From: Clostridiaceae bacterium JG1575
Lineage (GTDB): Bacteria; Bacillota; Clostridia; Clostridiales; Clostridiaceae
Reading direction: 5' to 3'
DNA length: 61,749 bases
Assembly (NCBI GenBank): GCA_002838815.1
Contig: LQGW01000026.1
Location: 1-61,749, forward strand
Below the pieces are notes generated by a model. That model searched no databases and was not told where the DNA came from. It was given only the letters and a program-made list of their open reading frames with translations. Both the position numbers and the translations under genes were made by a program. The first letter of the stretch is position 1. Each line of letters begins with the position of its first letter. Positions 3,883-14,291 of the stretch are shown in pieces.

Positions 3883-3956
3883 TGGCAGGGGTAGCAGGAT
3901 TCGAACCCACATTAACGGTTTTGGAGACCGTTGCTCTACCCTTGAACTATACCCCT
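3883..3956 (-). tRNA. tRNA-Trp (anticodon CCA)
   Basis: The minus strand folds into a full 74-base cloverleaf. The acceptor AGGGGTA pairs with TACCCCT, with discriminator G and an encoded CCA (plus 3883-3885). The anticodon stem ACGGT/ACCGT encloses CTCCAAA, giving anticodon CCA, and GGTTCGAATCC forms the T arm. The CCA anticodon reads UGG only. No UGA-decoding Trp tRNA is implied, so UGA should be an ordinary stop in this genome apart from recoding. The gene is a single tRNA unit with its own promoter and terminator. Confidence 0.97.
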
Positions 3957-4679: not shown

Positions 4680-4725
4680 ACATCCCCAAAGGGCCCTGGG
4701 CGATCAGGGCGACTTTTGGGGATGT
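4680..4725 (+). terminator. ohrR terminator overlapping the kinase 3' end
   Basis: ACATCCCCAAA (4680-4690) pairs with TTTGGGGATGT (4715-4725), followed by TCTTTTCTTC. The 3' arm lies inside the last codons of the convergent histidine kinase gene. On the minus strand the hairpin is followed by ATTTTCTT, so it may work in both directions. Confidence 0.8.
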
Positions 4726-6167
4726 TCTTTTCTTCGGGGACCATAGCTGGGCGTACGGTGAGCGGACGCCTCTTCGCGAATGGGTTGGTATGCGTGAAAG
4801 CGCAGGGTAAACACCGTTCCGATGCCGACCTTGGAATCCACATCGATGGTGGCGTCGTGGTTGTCCATGATGCGTTTCACGATGGTCAGCCCCAAACCAG
4901 AGCCTTCAATGACCTCCCGAGATTTATCCACCCGATAAAATCGCTCAAAGATATTGCCTAGATCCTCCTTGGGAATGCCCATGCCGGAATCGCGGATTCG
5001 TAAGGTCACGTAGCTGGCGTCCCGATTGAGGTAGAGGTTGATGCGCCCACCTTCAGGAGTAAATTTCATGGCGTTGTGTAACAGGTTCAACACCACTTGG
5101 TATAAGGAGTGGTAGTTGCCTCGGATGAGGTATTTCTCCCAGCGATTATAGTTGAAGGTCAAGTGCTGGTTCTTTTCTTGGGTGACGCCCAAAAAGTTGT
5201 TGTAAAGATCCTGGCAAAGGGTTTGCAAGTTGACCTCCTTCATCTGCTCCATCTGAGAGTCCGCCTCAAATTCCTTCAAAACGTTGAGGTTTCCGATGAG
5301 TTTGCCAAAACGAATAACTTCATTATTTAACGAAGCTAGGCGCTCCTTGGTCAAAGGAACCACCCCGTCGATCATCGCCTCCAAATTCGTCTGCAGAACA
5401 TTCAAAGGATTGCGCAACTCATGGGACAAATCCGAAACGAGGCGTCGACGAAGCGTATCTTGCTGATCGAGCTTTTCGCCCAGTTTGTTGATGGACTGGC
5501 GCAGTTGATCGATCTCTACAATATCGGTCTGACGCGTTTCCCGGGTTTTTAATTTTCCTTTGGAGAGCTTAAGGCTCGTCTTTGCAATGGAAACGATGGG
5601 ATCTGAGACCTGATTGGAGAGGAATAGGGAGAAGGGGAAGATGAGTATGGAGCCAATAACGGCGGAGACCAGGACGGACATGGTAAGGCTGAAAATGAAC
5701 TGCTCTTCGTTCTTGGAAATCAAAAGAGGCGTATACTGGCCTAAAGTCACATAGCCCACCACCTGGCCATCCACCTGGATTTCGTGGCGCTGAAATTTGA
5801 ACTGTTCCCGGGTAATAGGCGCAGCGCCGTCGGGCTGCTTTGCGTTGAGCTCGGAGATGATGAGTTCTGGCTCCAGCTGCCAGACGGTTTTGCCTTCTCG
5901 GTTCTCCAACTTCACGGAGAAGCCCGACACCTGACCTTCCCGCAGCACGGAGCTGCCGGAGGTGACGTCCCAGCCTTTTTTGTTGTTGGCGATGTAGTCG
6001 CTGCGAAATTCTCGGATGATGCGCTCGTCACGCTCCGCTTGGTTGGCCTTGGTGTAGATGGAGTACTGCTGATTGATGTTGAAGTTGATGATGATGTAGG
6101 TGAGGATCAACGCCAAAAGGGCTGACACCGTAATGGCCGATGCCAGCTTAAAGCGGATGGTATTCAC
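4704..6167 (-). CDS. Membrane sensor histidine kinase
   Basis: Sensor kinase of 487 aa. There is a transmembrane segment at about residues 8-28, an extracellular sensor region of about 125 aa, a second transmembrane segment at about 156-183, a HAMP-like linker, and a HisKA domain with SHELRNPLN (phospho-acceptor His249). The ATPase domain carries N box NLLHNAMKFT, DSGMGIP and GSGLGL. The start codon is GTG and directly follows the TAA of the response regulator, so translation is probably coupled. The signal is not known. Divergence from a heavy-metal ATPase suggests a metal or envelope-stress cue, but that is inference. Confidence 0.9.
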   Translation of the reverse strand: MNTIRFKLASAITVSALLALILTYIIINFNINQQYSIYTKANQAERDERIIREFRSDYIANNKKGWDVTSGSSVLREGQVSGFSVKLENREGKTVWQLEPELIISELNAKQPDGAAPITREQFKFQRHEIQVDGQVVGYVTLGQYTPLLISKNEEQFIFSLTMSVLVSAVIGSILIFPFSLFLSNQVSDPIVSIAKTSLKLSKGKLKTRETRQTDIVEIDQLRQSINKLGEKLDQQDTLRRRLVSDLSHELRNPLNVLQTNLEAMIDGVVPLTKERLASLNNEVIRFGKLIGNLNVLKEFEADSQMEQMKEVNLQTLCQDLYNNFLGVTQEKNQHLTFNYNRWEKYLIRGNYHSLYQVVLNLLHNAMKFTPEGGRINLYLNRDASYVTLRIRDSGMGIPKEDLGNIFERFYRVDKSREVIEGSGLGLTIVKRIMDNHDATIDVDSKVGIGTVFTLRFHAYQPIREEASAHRTPSYGPRRKEHPQKSP

Positions 6168-6857
6168 TTAAAGATCACCGCCGAACTTGTAACCTTGCTT
6201 GAATGAGGTGAGAACGTAGCGCGGATTTTTGGTGTCGTCCTCAATTTTTTTGCGAATGTTTTTGATGTGCACATCGATGGTTCGATCCACGCCTTCAAAC
6301 TCCACACCCAGGACCTTTTCGATGAGTTGCTCTCGGCTCATCACGTTGCCCTTATTTTGGGCGAGGGTCAAAAGGATGTCGAATTCCACAGGAGTCAAGG
6401 AGATGAGTTCGTCATGCACCCGAACCTCTCGACGGTCGGGCTCAATCACTAAGGCCCCAGAATCAAAGGAAAGCGCACTGGGGTTTTGCTGGGCGACGTT
6501 GATGCGTTTGAATAGATTCTGAACCCGGGCCAACAACTCCTTGGGGGAAAAGGGCTTCACGAGGTATTCGTCTGCCCCGAGCTCCAGCCCCTGAATGCGG
6601 TCCTCCAAAGACGATTTTGCCGTCAGCATGTAAACATAGGCCGCAGAGGTCTTACGAATGTGTTCGCAGATTTCCTCTCCAGGGATGTCGGGAAGCATCA
6701 GGTCCAATATGACCAAATCAAAGGGTTCGGCATCGAAAAGCTCCAAGCCCCGCCGTCCACGGGAGGCAGTCTCTACGTCAAAGCCCGCACCCGTCAAATA
6801 GGCGCTGAGCACATCCAGGACGCTCTCTTCATCTTCAATGAGCAGAATTTTATTCAT
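6168..6857 (-). CDS. OmpR/PhoB-family response regulator
   Basis: Response regulator of 229 aa. The receiver domain has acidic residues in LLIEDEE, phospho-acceptor Asp52 in VILDLMLPD, Thr79 and Lys101 (VKPFSP). The C-terminal winged helix has LTPVEFDILLTLAQNKG and VDVHIKNIRKKI-type recognition elements. A strong AGGAGGTG precedes the ATG. It forms an operon with the downstream kinase. The repeats at 6958-6995, between this gene and the P-type ATPase, are good candidates for its binding sites. Confidence 0.92.
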   Translation of the reverse strand: MNKILLIEDEESVLDVLSAYLTGAGFDVETASRGRRGLELFDAEPFDLVILDLMLPDIPGEEICEHIRKTSAAYVYMLTAKSSLEDRIQGLELGADEYLVKPFSPKELLARVQNLFKRINVAQQNPSALSFDSGALVIEPDRREVRVHDELISLTPVEFDILLTLAQNKGNVMSREQLIEKVLGVEFEGVDRTIDVHIKNIRKKIEDDTKNPRYVLTSFKQGYKFGGDL

Positions 6858-7037: not shown

Positions 7038-7085
7038 AAAACCGACAAAAGCAGAGTAAACTGCTACGAATTAAGGAGGCAAGCC

Positions 7086-9296
7086 ATGACCGACATTGTG
7101 CTGAAGCTAAGCGGCCTGACGTGAGCCGGCTGCGGCGCCAAAATCGAACGAGAAGTCGCTAAAGAGCCGGGCGTCACCCGTGTGACCTTGAATCTTCCCT
7201 GCGAGAGCCTGACGATTACGGCGCAAGAAGGCACCGGGAGTGCCTTAATTTCCTCAGTGAAAAAAATAGTGGCCCGCTATGAACCCCATGTGGAGGTGCG
7301 GGCGCAAGATCCTGGAAAGGGTCCGTCCGCCAAGGAGGCCGACGAGCAGGAGGAAGGACCCTCCTTCTTTCATTCGCTGCGCTGGATGAAGGTACGCATT
7401 ATCCTAGGACTTTTGCTCTTTTTTGCCTCCTTTGGCGCAGGAAAAATGCCCGCTTTAAGCCATGGCTTGCTTCTTTTGGCGTATGTTCTGGCCGGCTACG
7501 ATGTGGTGGCCCGGGCCCTGCGAAATCTTCTTCGCCTAGAGCTCTTTGACGAAAACTTTCTTATGACCCTCGCGACGGTGGGCGCAGTGGCTCTGGGCGA
7601 ATACCGGGAAGCAGCGGGCGTCATGCTCTTTTATATGATCGGGGAATTCTTCCAGCGCCTGGCGGTGGAACGCTCCCGCAAGAACATTCAAACCCTTTTA
7701 GACATCCGTCCGGAATTTGCACGGGTGGAGCGGGAGGGGGCGGAACGCACCGTGGCCCCTCAAGAGGTGCGCGTGGGGGAGGTCATCAAGGTCCGTCCCG
7801 GAGAGCGCATCCCCTTAGACGGCGTGGTCCTCTCGGGCACCTCGGAAATCGACACACGGGCCCTGACGGGAGAATCCCTGCCGCGCACGGCCGCGCCCGA
7901 CACCGAAGTCCTCTCGGGCTCCGTCAACATTCTCTCCGCCTTGCGCATCCGCGTGAAGGAGCCCTATGAAACCTCCACGGTGGCCCGGATCTTAGAGCTT
8001 TTGGAGCACTCGGCGGCCAAAAAAGGCAAGACCGAACAATTCATCACCAAATTTGCTCGAGTCTATACCCCCGTGGTGGTGGCGCTTTCCCTCGTGGTGG
8101 CCCTGGTCGTGCCGCTCCTCTTGGGCCAAAGCTTCGGCCCTTGGGTCCGTAAAGCCCTCGTCTTCCTCGTCATCAGTTGTCCGTGCGCCTTGGTGCTCTC
8201 CATTCCTTTGGGCTTTTTCGGAGGCATTGGTCTAGCCTCCCGCCACGGCATTTTGGTAAAAGGGTCCAACTACCTTGAACAGCTGCGCCACATCAAAACC
8301 CTAGTGCTGGATAAAACGGGCACCCTAACCTACGGCGTCTTTGCCGTATCCTCCGTGCATCCCGCCCCCGACCTCACCGCTTCTGAGCTTTTGACGTTGG
8401 CAGCGAGCCTTGAGGCGGATTCACCCCATCCCATTGCTAAGTCCATTGTGGCGGCTTGCCCAAAAGCAGCGCAAACCTCCGTACTCTCGACGCAGGAACT
8501 CCCCGGCAAGGGGATGAAGGGGCTTGGTCCCGACGGAACCGTCCTATATTTGGGCAACCTTCGCTTGATGAAAGAACTGGGCCTTTCTTTGGCTCCCTTG
8601 GAGAGTACCGGCGTCTTTTTAGCCGAGCAAAAAGGCGAAACCACGCGTCTTTTGGGCTGGATCTTGGTGGAAGACCGGTTGAAGGAAAACGCGCAAGCCA
8701 CGCTAAAGCAGCTCAGGCGCCTGGGGGTGGAAGAGATTTACCTCTACTCCGGCGATGGCGAAGCCATGGTGCAAAAGGCAGCCTACGCCGTGGGTGTGGA
8801 CGGTTATGCTTCAGAACTTTTGCCCCAGGATAAGGTGGCCAGAATCGAGGAGCTTGCCGCAGATCCTACCCGTGGCCCCATTGCCTTTGTGGGAGACGGA
8901 CTCAATGATACTCCCGTGCTCGCCCGGGCAGACGTAGGCATCTCCATGGGCTCCATGGGCTCCAGTGCCGCCATCGAGGCCTCCGACGTTGTCCTCATGG
9001 ACGATTCTCTGGAAAATCTCCCCAGGGCCATGCGGCTCTCCCAGATGACCCACCGCATCGTGTTGCAAAACATCTTCATGAGCCTGTCGGTCAAGGCCGT
9101 GGTCATGGCTGGAGCACTTTTTTATCAAGAGAACATCTGGCTGGCCATCTTTGCTGATGTGGGCGTGGCGCTCCTAGCGGTGCTCAATTCCGCCCGCTTG
9201 GTGCGCATGAAACTCCCCAAAGGGACGCTGGGAGCCCAAAAACTCTCGGTCAGCGGGCAGGAGCCTGCGCTGGCGGATTCACGGGAGGTGGCTTAA
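7086..9296 (+). CDS. Zn/Cd/Pb-type P-type ATPase with in-frame UGA (probable selenocysteine) in its HMA domain
   Basis: Metal-exporting P1B ATPase of 736 residues if codon 13 (TGA, 7122-7124) is read through. The ATG at 7086 follows TTAAGGAGGCAAGCC, an ideal ribosome site. The N-terminus MTDIVLKLSGLT-(TGA)-AGCGAKIEREV is an HMA domain in which TGA replaces the first Cys of the GLxCxxC metal site, leaving U/stop-x-x-Cys16. Downstream are TGES (261-264), CPC (365-367), DKTGT (Asp409), SPHP, GDGLNDTP and a C-terminal FADVG typical of the Zn/Cd/Pb (ZntA/CadA) class. There are about eight membrane segments. The regulator pair lies divergently upstream. If TGA is a true stop, translation could only restart at GTG 7182 without the HMA motif; a TGC-to-TGA mutation or sequence error is the third option. 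Confidence 0.85.
7125..7170 (+). other. SECIS-like stem-loop just after the UGA
   Basis: CCGGCU (7126-7131) pairs with AGCCGG (7165-7170). GCGGC (7132-7136) pairs with GUCGC (7155-7159) including one G-U pair. A five-base bulge (7160-7164) lies on the 3' side, and an 18-base apical loop starts with G. Bacterial selenocysteine insertion elements are loosely defined hairpins directly 3' of the UGA, so position and size fit. The large loop is not textbook, and the region is coding and GC-rich, so a chance fold is possible. Confidence 0.45.
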
Positions 9297-12340: not shown

Positions 12341-12410
12341 CAAAGAAGTGCAACCATCCTTAGGGTCCCCAAAAGACCTTAGGGCCCATGGAGCCATAGG
12401 AGGGCTCGCT

Positions 12411-14291
12411 ATGATGAAAACAAAGAGAACGTCCAAGCACCCATCGCCCCATGCCGGCGATGCTCATCAAAAGACCGCGCCGGTCCCTGAGGCGGCCATG
12501 AGGGATTCCTCGAGCCCCAAGTCTACAGCGGAGGATTTGACGGAGCGGGAGCTGCAAGAGCGCAAAAAAAGAACCAAGGAGCCCGCAGCCAAAGAAAGGC
12601 AAGGGATGGGCCCCATCCCCCAAGAGGTGCCTCAATCCATTGAAGCGGACTCCTTAAAAGAAAGCAGCGACATCACTCGGGATGAAAAATTCCAACATGA
12701 GATCCACCAGCGAGAGGCCGGCGAAAAGGAAGCCCTGGCGGACTCCTTTATCCTTACTCGGGAAGAAAAGATCGAATCGGAATACCCGGCGGAGTTAAAC
12801 GACATCTTGGCGGTTCAAGACGACGATGTTTTGGCGGAGCGTCTGGCCTACCTTCAGCGGCGGCTTATGGAGTTTAAGGTGCCCGTCATGATCGTTTTGG
12901 AAGGGGCCTACGCCTGCGGCAAGGGGCGCATCACCAACGAACTGCTCATGGGTCTGGATGCTCGGAGCACACGGTTCATCGGCACCAGGCCGCCCAGTGA
13001 AGACGATCTGATGAAGCCCTTTCTCACCCAATACCTAGAGTCCATCCCTTCCTATCGGACCTTTAACATTTACTACCGCTCCTGGTATTCCAACTACATC
13101 TACTATAAGCACCATTTCATCGCCCGGGATCGCTATCCAGATCCTGACATCCTCTTGGAGGAGATCAAGGCCTTTGAAAGGGGCTTGGCGGACGATGGTA
13201 CCGTGATCATCAAATTCAAAATTCACATTGATCCTGAAAAGCAGAACGACAACATCCGTAAAATGCTCGCGTCGCCTTTGACCACCTGGAAGGCTCAGGA
13301 ATATGATAAGTACAACAACGAAGCCTACGTTCGGGAGATGGAACGCATCATGGCCGAAACGGATATGCCTTATGCGCCCTGGTACCGCATCGACTACACG
13401 AAGAAGGCGGAAACCACTCGTAAGGTGATGAAAAAGGTTATTGAAATCCTGGGGGACCGGCTCAAAAAGGAAGAGCATAAAAAAGAAATCCCCCCCATGG
13501 ATCGGGACGGGAAGTTCACGGGCAACACCGACGGCCCTTTACAGCGGGTGGATTTGACCCAGGACATTTGCGATAAAACCTATTCCAAAAAGCTCAAAGA
13601 GCTGCAACACCGCATGCGCGAGGTTCAGCACGCCCTTTATATGGAACGCATCCCTTTGATTTTAGTCTTTGAAGGCTGGGATGCGGCGGGCAAAGGGGGG
13701 GCCATTCACCGAATCATCGCAAACCTGGACCCCACGAACTACACCGTCAATACGACGGCGGCTCCCAACGATTTGGAAAAAGAGCACCAGTATTTGTGGC
13801 GCTTTGCTACGAAGTTCCCAAGAGCCGGACACATTGCCATCTGGGACCGCTCTTGGTACGGTCGCGTCATGGTGGAGCGCGTCGAAGGCTTTGCGACGGA
13901 TGCGCAGTGGAACCGAGCCTATGATGAGATCAATCAATTCGAGGAAATCATGACCCACTATGGCGCCATCGTGTTGAAGTTCTTTTTGCACATCGATAAA
14001 GAAACCCAGCTTGCCCGGTTTGAGGCCCGTCAGGCAAACCCTGCCAAGCGCTGGAAGATCACCGATGAAGATTGGCGCAATCGCGAAAAATGGGACAAGT
14101 ATACGGAGGCCGTCAACGACATGATTGAAAAAACCAGCACGCCCCGAGCGCCTTGGTTCATTATCGAAGGCAATTCCAAAAAGTATGCGCGCATCCGCAT
14201 CCTCGACTGCATCACCACGGAGTGCGACAAGTATTTAAAGTATATTGATTACGGCAACGGACCCTACAGCCAAAAGAAAAAGGGCAAATAG
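12411..14291 (+). CDS. pap: Polyphosphate:AMP phosphotransferase (two-domain PPK2 family)
   Basis: PPK2-type kinase of 626 aa that by family uses polyphosphate to phosphorylate AMP to ADP. After a charged N-terminal extension of about 130 aa come two PPK2 domains. The first has an altered P-loop GAYACGKGR and YRSWYSN, missing the Asp of the catalytic DRSWY. The second has canonical GWDAAGKGG and WDRSWYGRV. Only the second half therefore looks catalytic, as known for two-domain PAPs. The start ATG 12411 follows AGGAGGG. PPK1, which makes polyphosphate, lies 1 kb downstream. The low-complexity N-terminal extension is unusual. Confidence 0.88.
   Translation: MMKTKRTSKHPSPHAGDAHQKTAPVPEAAMRDSSSPKSTAEDLTERELQERKKRTKEPAAKERQGMGPIPQEVPQSIEADSLKESSDITRDEKFQHEIHQREAGEKEALADSFILTREEKIESEYPAELNDILAVQDDDVLAERLAYLQRRLMEFKVPVMIVLEGAYACGKGRITNELLMGLDARSTRFIGTRPPSEDDLMKPFLTQYLESIPSYRTFNIYYRSWYSNYIYYKHHFIARDRYPDPDILLEEIKAFERGLADDGTVIIKFKIHIDPEKQNDNIRKMLASPLTTWKAQEYDKYNNEAYVREMERIMAETDMPYAPWYRIDYTKKAETTRKVMKKVIEILGDRLKKEEHKKEIPPMDRDGKFTGNTDGPLQRVDLTQDICDKTYSKKLKELQHRMREVQHALYMERIPLILVFEGWDAAGKGGAIHRIIANLDPTNYTVNTTAAPNDLEKEHQYLWRFATKFPRAGHIAIWDRSWYGRVMVERVEGFATDAQWNRAYDEINQFEEIMTHYGAIVLKFFLHIDKETQLARFEARQANPAKRWKITDEDWRNREKWDKYTEAVNDMIEKTSTPRAPWFIIEGNSKKYARIRILDCITTECDKYLKYIDYGNGPYSQKKKGK

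Follow-up and report, generated by a model that had tools for sequence, protein, structure and literature searches.

A predicted selenocysteine-containing ZntA/CadA-type P1B ATPase with UxxC in place of CxxC in its HMA domain in Clostridiaceae bacterium JG1575

The window (the whole 61,749 nt stretch of DNA analysed, contig LQGW01000026.1 of Clostridiaceae bacterium JG1575) has a gene that, judging from sequence comparison, very probably encodes a selenoprotein. It is a ZntA/CadA-type P1B ATPase in which UxxC stands for CxxC in the single N-terminal HMA domain (Table 1). We infer that the UGA at codon 13 is read as selenocysteine (Sec) in the cell. It would be decoded by SelB and tRNA-Sec, with the Sec supplied by SelA and SelD; as a ligand for soft metals, or as a switch sensitive to redox state, the residue would load or gate the pump. 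An earlier note on this DNA had proposed a Sec UxxC metal site. The Sec part stands, on the Sec genes of the genome and the conserved TGA; the choice of a metal ligand over a redox residue goes past the evidence.

Table 1. Features of the ATPase gene and its divergent neighbours in the window
Feature	Positions	Strand	Basis
Sensor histidine kinase, divergent neighbour	4704..6167	-	domain match; order kept in G002
OmpR-type response regulator, divergent neighbour, possible ATPase regulator	6168..6857	-	domain match; order kept in relatives
Ribosome-binding site AAGGAGG	7073..7079	+	6 bases 5' of ATG; sequence
P1B-type heavy-metal ATPase (ZntA/CadA-like), 736 residues with codon 13 read through	7086..9296	+	translation, Pfam, NCBIfam, 4umv match
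HMA (heavy-metal-associated) domain, residues 5-48	7098..7229	+	PF00403, 33.1 bits with C substituted for U, cut-off 24.8
In-frame TGA, predicted Sec13, UxxC first position	7122..7124	+	codon 13; sequence and TGA in relatives
Candidate SECIS hairpin, weak	7126..7170	+	within published bSECIS limits, as are 79 of 112 other positions tested in the gene
Cys16, UxxC second residue	7131..7133	+	sequence
CPC metal-transport motif (presumed role) in transmembrane helix	8178..8186	+	sequence
DKTGT phosphorylation motif (presumed role)	8310..8324	+	sequence

The ATPase frame starts at ATG 7086–7088 and ends with the stop codon TAA at 9294–9296. The TGA is the sole in-frame stop ahead of this TAA, and the 723 codons 3' of it remain open. 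With the TGA read through, the predicted protein is of about 79 kDa. The earlier description of a ribosome site and ATG followed by an in-frame TGA in an intact ATPase is thus borne out. The metal-site motif is GLT-U-AGC. Pfam places E1-E2_ATPase at residues 208–387 and Hydrolase at 403–616. NCBIfam models for heavy-metal P-type ATPases (TIGR01525, 515.9 bits, cut-off 346.25) and cadmium-family P-type ATPases (TIGR01512, 480.4 bits, cut-off 313.5) both match, and the narrower ZntA equivalog models NF033775 and NF008262 give below-cut-off matches only. P1B-2 ATPases, which transport Zn, Cd and Pb, have a signature of an HMA domain, CPC in a membrane helix, DKTGT, and N-x7-K...DxG in the last helices. 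The signature is complete in the translation, with DVG as its last element, and we infer that the protein exports Zn, Cd or Pb.

The closest solved relative is the zinc-transporting ATPase 4umv (residues 6–708, E 3.3e-103), and the HMA Cys, CPC and DKTGT of the two proteins all align. The HMA motif is CAAC in 4umv and U-A-G-C in the window's ATPase. In the alignment codon 13 falls on the first Cys of CAAC, and the TGA is therefore at a metal-ligand Cys, as had been claimed. The HMA domain of ZntA (1mwy) matches the HMA part of the protein. Within the same family and order, Cys-type ZntA/CadA-like ATPases are 42–48% identical to the window's (best match per genome, L015–L042 except the TGA-bearing L017). 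They have Cys at the codon and show no added RNA structure 3' of it, and 9 of their 25 motif-bearing genes have two motif-bearing HMA stretches.

Eight genomes, counting the window's own, have TGA at the aligned codon (G000, G001, G002, G037, G144, G166, G423 and L045), and five of these lie outside the window's genus. A protein search for the ATPase covered 39 genomes, the window's among them. In the same genus, the G001 protein is 55% identical over residues 6–436, after which the contig ends, and that of G002 is 57% identical over residues 72–718 and 47% over 3–79. Both have the TGA at codon 13, preceded by 12 codons from ATG as in the window, and the frames are otherwise open. The sequence upstream of ATG is GAATTAGGAGG in G001 and G002 and GAATTAAGGAGG in the window; GAATTA(A)GGAGG is kept in both relatives upstream of the ATPase start. 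G037, which has TGA at the aligned codon, belongs to another family of the same order. The relatives keep the HMA region, as the earlier note's reading called for. In the TGA-bearing ATPases of G002, G166 and G423 (L061, L065 and L068), a His-rich linker joins the HMA domain to the first membrane helix; the window's protein has no such linker.

In a sample of 391 genomes of the class, a degenerate DNA pattern that describes the TGA form of the motif matches two, G144 and G166; the Gly after the second Cys keeps it from matching the window's own gene. A wider pattern, run on 225 genomes of the order, matches five (G000, G001, G002, G037 and G423, with the window included). The contig of G423 ends inside the ATPase gene, and this genome is outside the selA count, the RNA-structure comparison, the tree and the bSECIS-limit count given below. 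A scan of a named genome collection, which returned neither the window's genome nor, by name, G002, gave eight stretches. Two are within an ATPase frame: L045, from a Syntrophomonadaceae MAG, and L046, from a Clostridium sp. MAG, which is taken as a contig of G001 by equal sequence. The other six (L044, L047, L048, L049, L050 and L051) lie outside any ATPase frame and were rejected as chance matches.

A total of 41 motif-bearing ATPase stretches were compared, and homologues have either Cys or TGA at the codon, as the check proposed earlier was meant to reveal. Seven stretches, from distinct genes, have TGA and 34 have Cys; the latter are not independent, since they come from 25 genes, and the motif search behind both counts allowed Cys or stop only. 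Two further loci, L025 and L042, are outside the 34 as their motif was unmatched. When the HMA region is aligned without the Cys/stop limit, all 33 matches that have a residue at the codon show Cys, and none Trp. TGA genes cross the codon in this alignment only in L060 and L061, because the stop cuts the alignment; L025 has Cys at this place, and L017, L033, L040 and L042 give no match there. A tree of 34 rows was made with the longest frame per locus (L014, L017 and L046 omitted as duplicates; the 27 C-labelled rows include L025 and L042). The TGA label needs three changes on this tree compared with a shuffled mean of 6.5. The genus trio forms one clade with support of 100/100, and the placement of L045, on a very long branch, is unsure. 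The TGA codon may have had a single origin among the ATPases.

The genes needed for Sec are found in the window's genome on contig C34: selA (611.7 bits), selB (355.5 bits) and selD (364.8 bits), all above cut-off and grouped within positions 123322–129669, and a tRNA-Sec at 135982–136074 (67.5 bits, gathering score 47). This was the check named beforehand, and all four genes are present. ARAGORN found no tRNA in C34:119000–135000, and the tRNA-Sec sits just past that interval. The search for selB and selD was confined to the window's genome. In the wider set, all 7 TGA genomes tested (G423 outside the set) have selA above cut-off, as do 33 of the 42 genomes overall, and its presence in the TGA genomes is not significant alone because selA is common in the group. 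A tRNA-Sec above cut-off is present in 7 of the 8 TGA genomes; none over cut-off was found in G001, an assembly that is 87% complete in 510 contigs. The selD gene itself has one in-frame TGA (L010:1531–1533, from C34 of G000) within CGGUDSK, which we take to be the usual Sec place of SelD selenoproteins. The genome therefore has, besides the ATPase gene, another gene with a TGA, and this one belongs to a well-known kind of selenoprotein.

Published limits for bacterial SECIS elements (bSECIS) are a G in the first two loop bases, a spacing of 16–37 nt and an energy of -7.5 or lower, as given in passages of PMC13188914. In the hairpin 3' of the selD TGA, the stem is GAGC/GCUC, the loop is AGGU and the spacing is 17 nt; its energy, -5.7 kcal/mol by our measure, is short of the -7.5 limit. 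The hairpin in the window's ATPase gene has an energy of -13.2, a value that is reached at 23 of the 112 other positions tested there. The downstream stretch has a z of -0.68 against its own background and of -0.47 in the comparison with relatives. By these measures the window hairpin does not exceed its GC-rich background.

The TGA genes as a group provide fair to good evidence for a SECIS element. For the 60 bases 3' of the codon, mean z is -1.60 across the seven TGA genes and +0.24 across the 34 Cys stretches (Mann-Whitney p 5e-5), and the difference is also found with 42 bases (p 2e-4), both values being uncorrected for kinship. Each z value compares a stretch with other positions of its own gene, and GC is thereby controlled by gene. 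L045, G144, G166 and G037 account for the effect (z -2.1 to -3.2), G001 contributes less (-0.95), and G002 (-0.12) and the window show none. The bSECIS limits admit four of the 7 TGA genes and one of the 34 Cys stretches, counts in which GC is uncontrolled and unmatched (0.49 in the TGA genes, 0.37 in the Cys ones). The chance matches L044, L047, L049 and L051, repeats of the same 60 bases, and L062, L063 and L014, which are short duplicates of L064, L065 and L061, were dropped from the RNA-structure comparison.

No consensus fold of all seven TGA sequences was found. The four outside-genus sequences share a 10-pair fold with three both-sided changes, but its loop is 40 nt from the UGA, beyond the published 16–37, and the fold was rejected as a SECIS element. 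The common fold of the genus trio is only -2.4 kcal/mol. By eye, a stem directly 3' of the TGA has its pairing kept despite letter changes between G037 and G166 (L066:4153–4215, L064:4620–4682 and L065:1537–1599), and the 10-pair fold, with its both-sided changes, is a second hairpin further downstream. Rfam at gathering scores shows tRNA as the only match in the whole window.

The response regulator next to the ATPase gene is 69% identical in G002 and 70% identical in L046, and the histidine kinase is 72% identical in G002, in the same arrangement. In L046 a 474-codon frame follows the response regulator. Conserved gene order, the one basis for this reading, suggests that the adjoining two-component system probably controls the ATPase. 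An ArsR-family gene lies directly before the ATPase in G144, G166 and L045, and a gene for a Trp-repressor-family protein precedes it in G037. The surroundings of the TGA-bearing ATPases, together with the His-rich linkers, would mostly fit metal export. About 4 kb before the window's ATPase is a gene for a ZnuA-type zinc-uptake binding protein (1775–2809, + strand; PF01297, 50.9 bits). A PPK2-family polyphosphate kinase of 647 aa with two matched stretches is encoded at 12348–14291 (+ strand).

Selenoproteins of this kind have been listed before. Cation-transporting ATPase E1-E2 is among the selenoproteins in the lists of PMC9312934 and PMC13188914, with ABB15669.1 as an example, and a list in PMC2398784 gives it with UxxC. 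Table 3 of a 2016 survey has 25 organisms and 32 genes for the ATPase selenoprotein family (PMC5029168). The family itself is credited to Zhang and Gladyshev 2007 by PMC13188914. The window's ATPase has in common with these proteins the ATPase family (TIGR01525) and the UxxC replacement. It is a further example of the known UxxC ZntA-type selenoprotein family, placed there by these two features and not by alignment with ABB15669.1. Mercury-related selenoproteins described in the papers (MerP/MerT-like proteins and a putative mercuric reductase) also have Sec in metal handling, but they are non-ATPases, unlike the window's protein. A dedicated study of a selenoprotein HMA domain or P-type ATPase was not found in the literature searched, and a 2026 review calls for further study of what exactly such proteins do in metal detoxification (PMC13188914).

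Other explanations of the TGA were considered. TGC and TGT are each one base from TGA, and the gene could in principle be a pseudogene that arose by a sequencing error or a recent TGC-to-TGA mutation, as the earlier note had allowed. The same-codon TGA in eight genomes, among them two others of the genus at 47–57% identity, contradicts this and leaves almost no room for it, and the 723 open codons are also against it; we consider an error or recent mutation extremely unlikely. A true stop at the UGA, with a shorter ATPase that lacks the metal site starting downstream, is very unlikely. A frame of 704 aa is open from GTG 7182, for example, but by eye there is no ribosome-site-like sequence directly 5' of 7182, and in G002 the earliest possible start 3' of the TGA is at a different codon (4516 of L061). 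Such a start would also not account for the ribosome site, the ATG and the 12-codon count before the TGA being kept across the genus, and a true stop leaves a TGA on the Cys codon in several families without reason. The chance of Trp insertion at the UGA, or of general UGA suppression in this organism, is close to negligible. Only the open frame speaks for it. The tRNA-Trp of the window (3883–3956) has the anticodon CCA and reads only UGG, as first reported, and TGA is indeed used as a stop nearby, where it terminates 13 of 44 long frames of the window (with little mutual overlap). The aligned homologues, with Cys and never Trp at the codon, are likewise against Trp.

A different kind of alternative accepts the selenoprotein but gives the Sec a redox function, with the UxxC forming a selenenylsulfide that senses oxidation instead of binding metal. 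This is possible but not favored. UxxC is also a redox motif of thioredoxin-like proteins, which counts for a redox role. Selenoproteins of known function are mostly redox proteins according to passages in PMC2398784 and PMC9312934. Against it, the residue is at a metal ligand position of an HMA domain, His-rich linkers follow this domain in three of the TGA-bearing proteins, and ArsR-family genes adjoin the ATPase in three genomes, G037 not being one of them.

With Sec predicted in its HMA domain, the window's ATPase is a well-supported example of this residue at a site that binds metal and is not obviously redox. A gene caller with TGA as a stop shifts the start to GTG 7182, and the metal site is lost. 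We tentatively propose that the U-C pair binds Hg, Cd or Pb tighter than C-C and gates or loads the pump, that selenium supply conditions the metal resistance of this clade, and that the two-component system senses that state; this is a speculative model. The genus trio with TGA and the Cys relatives of the order represent natural pairs for what Sec adds.
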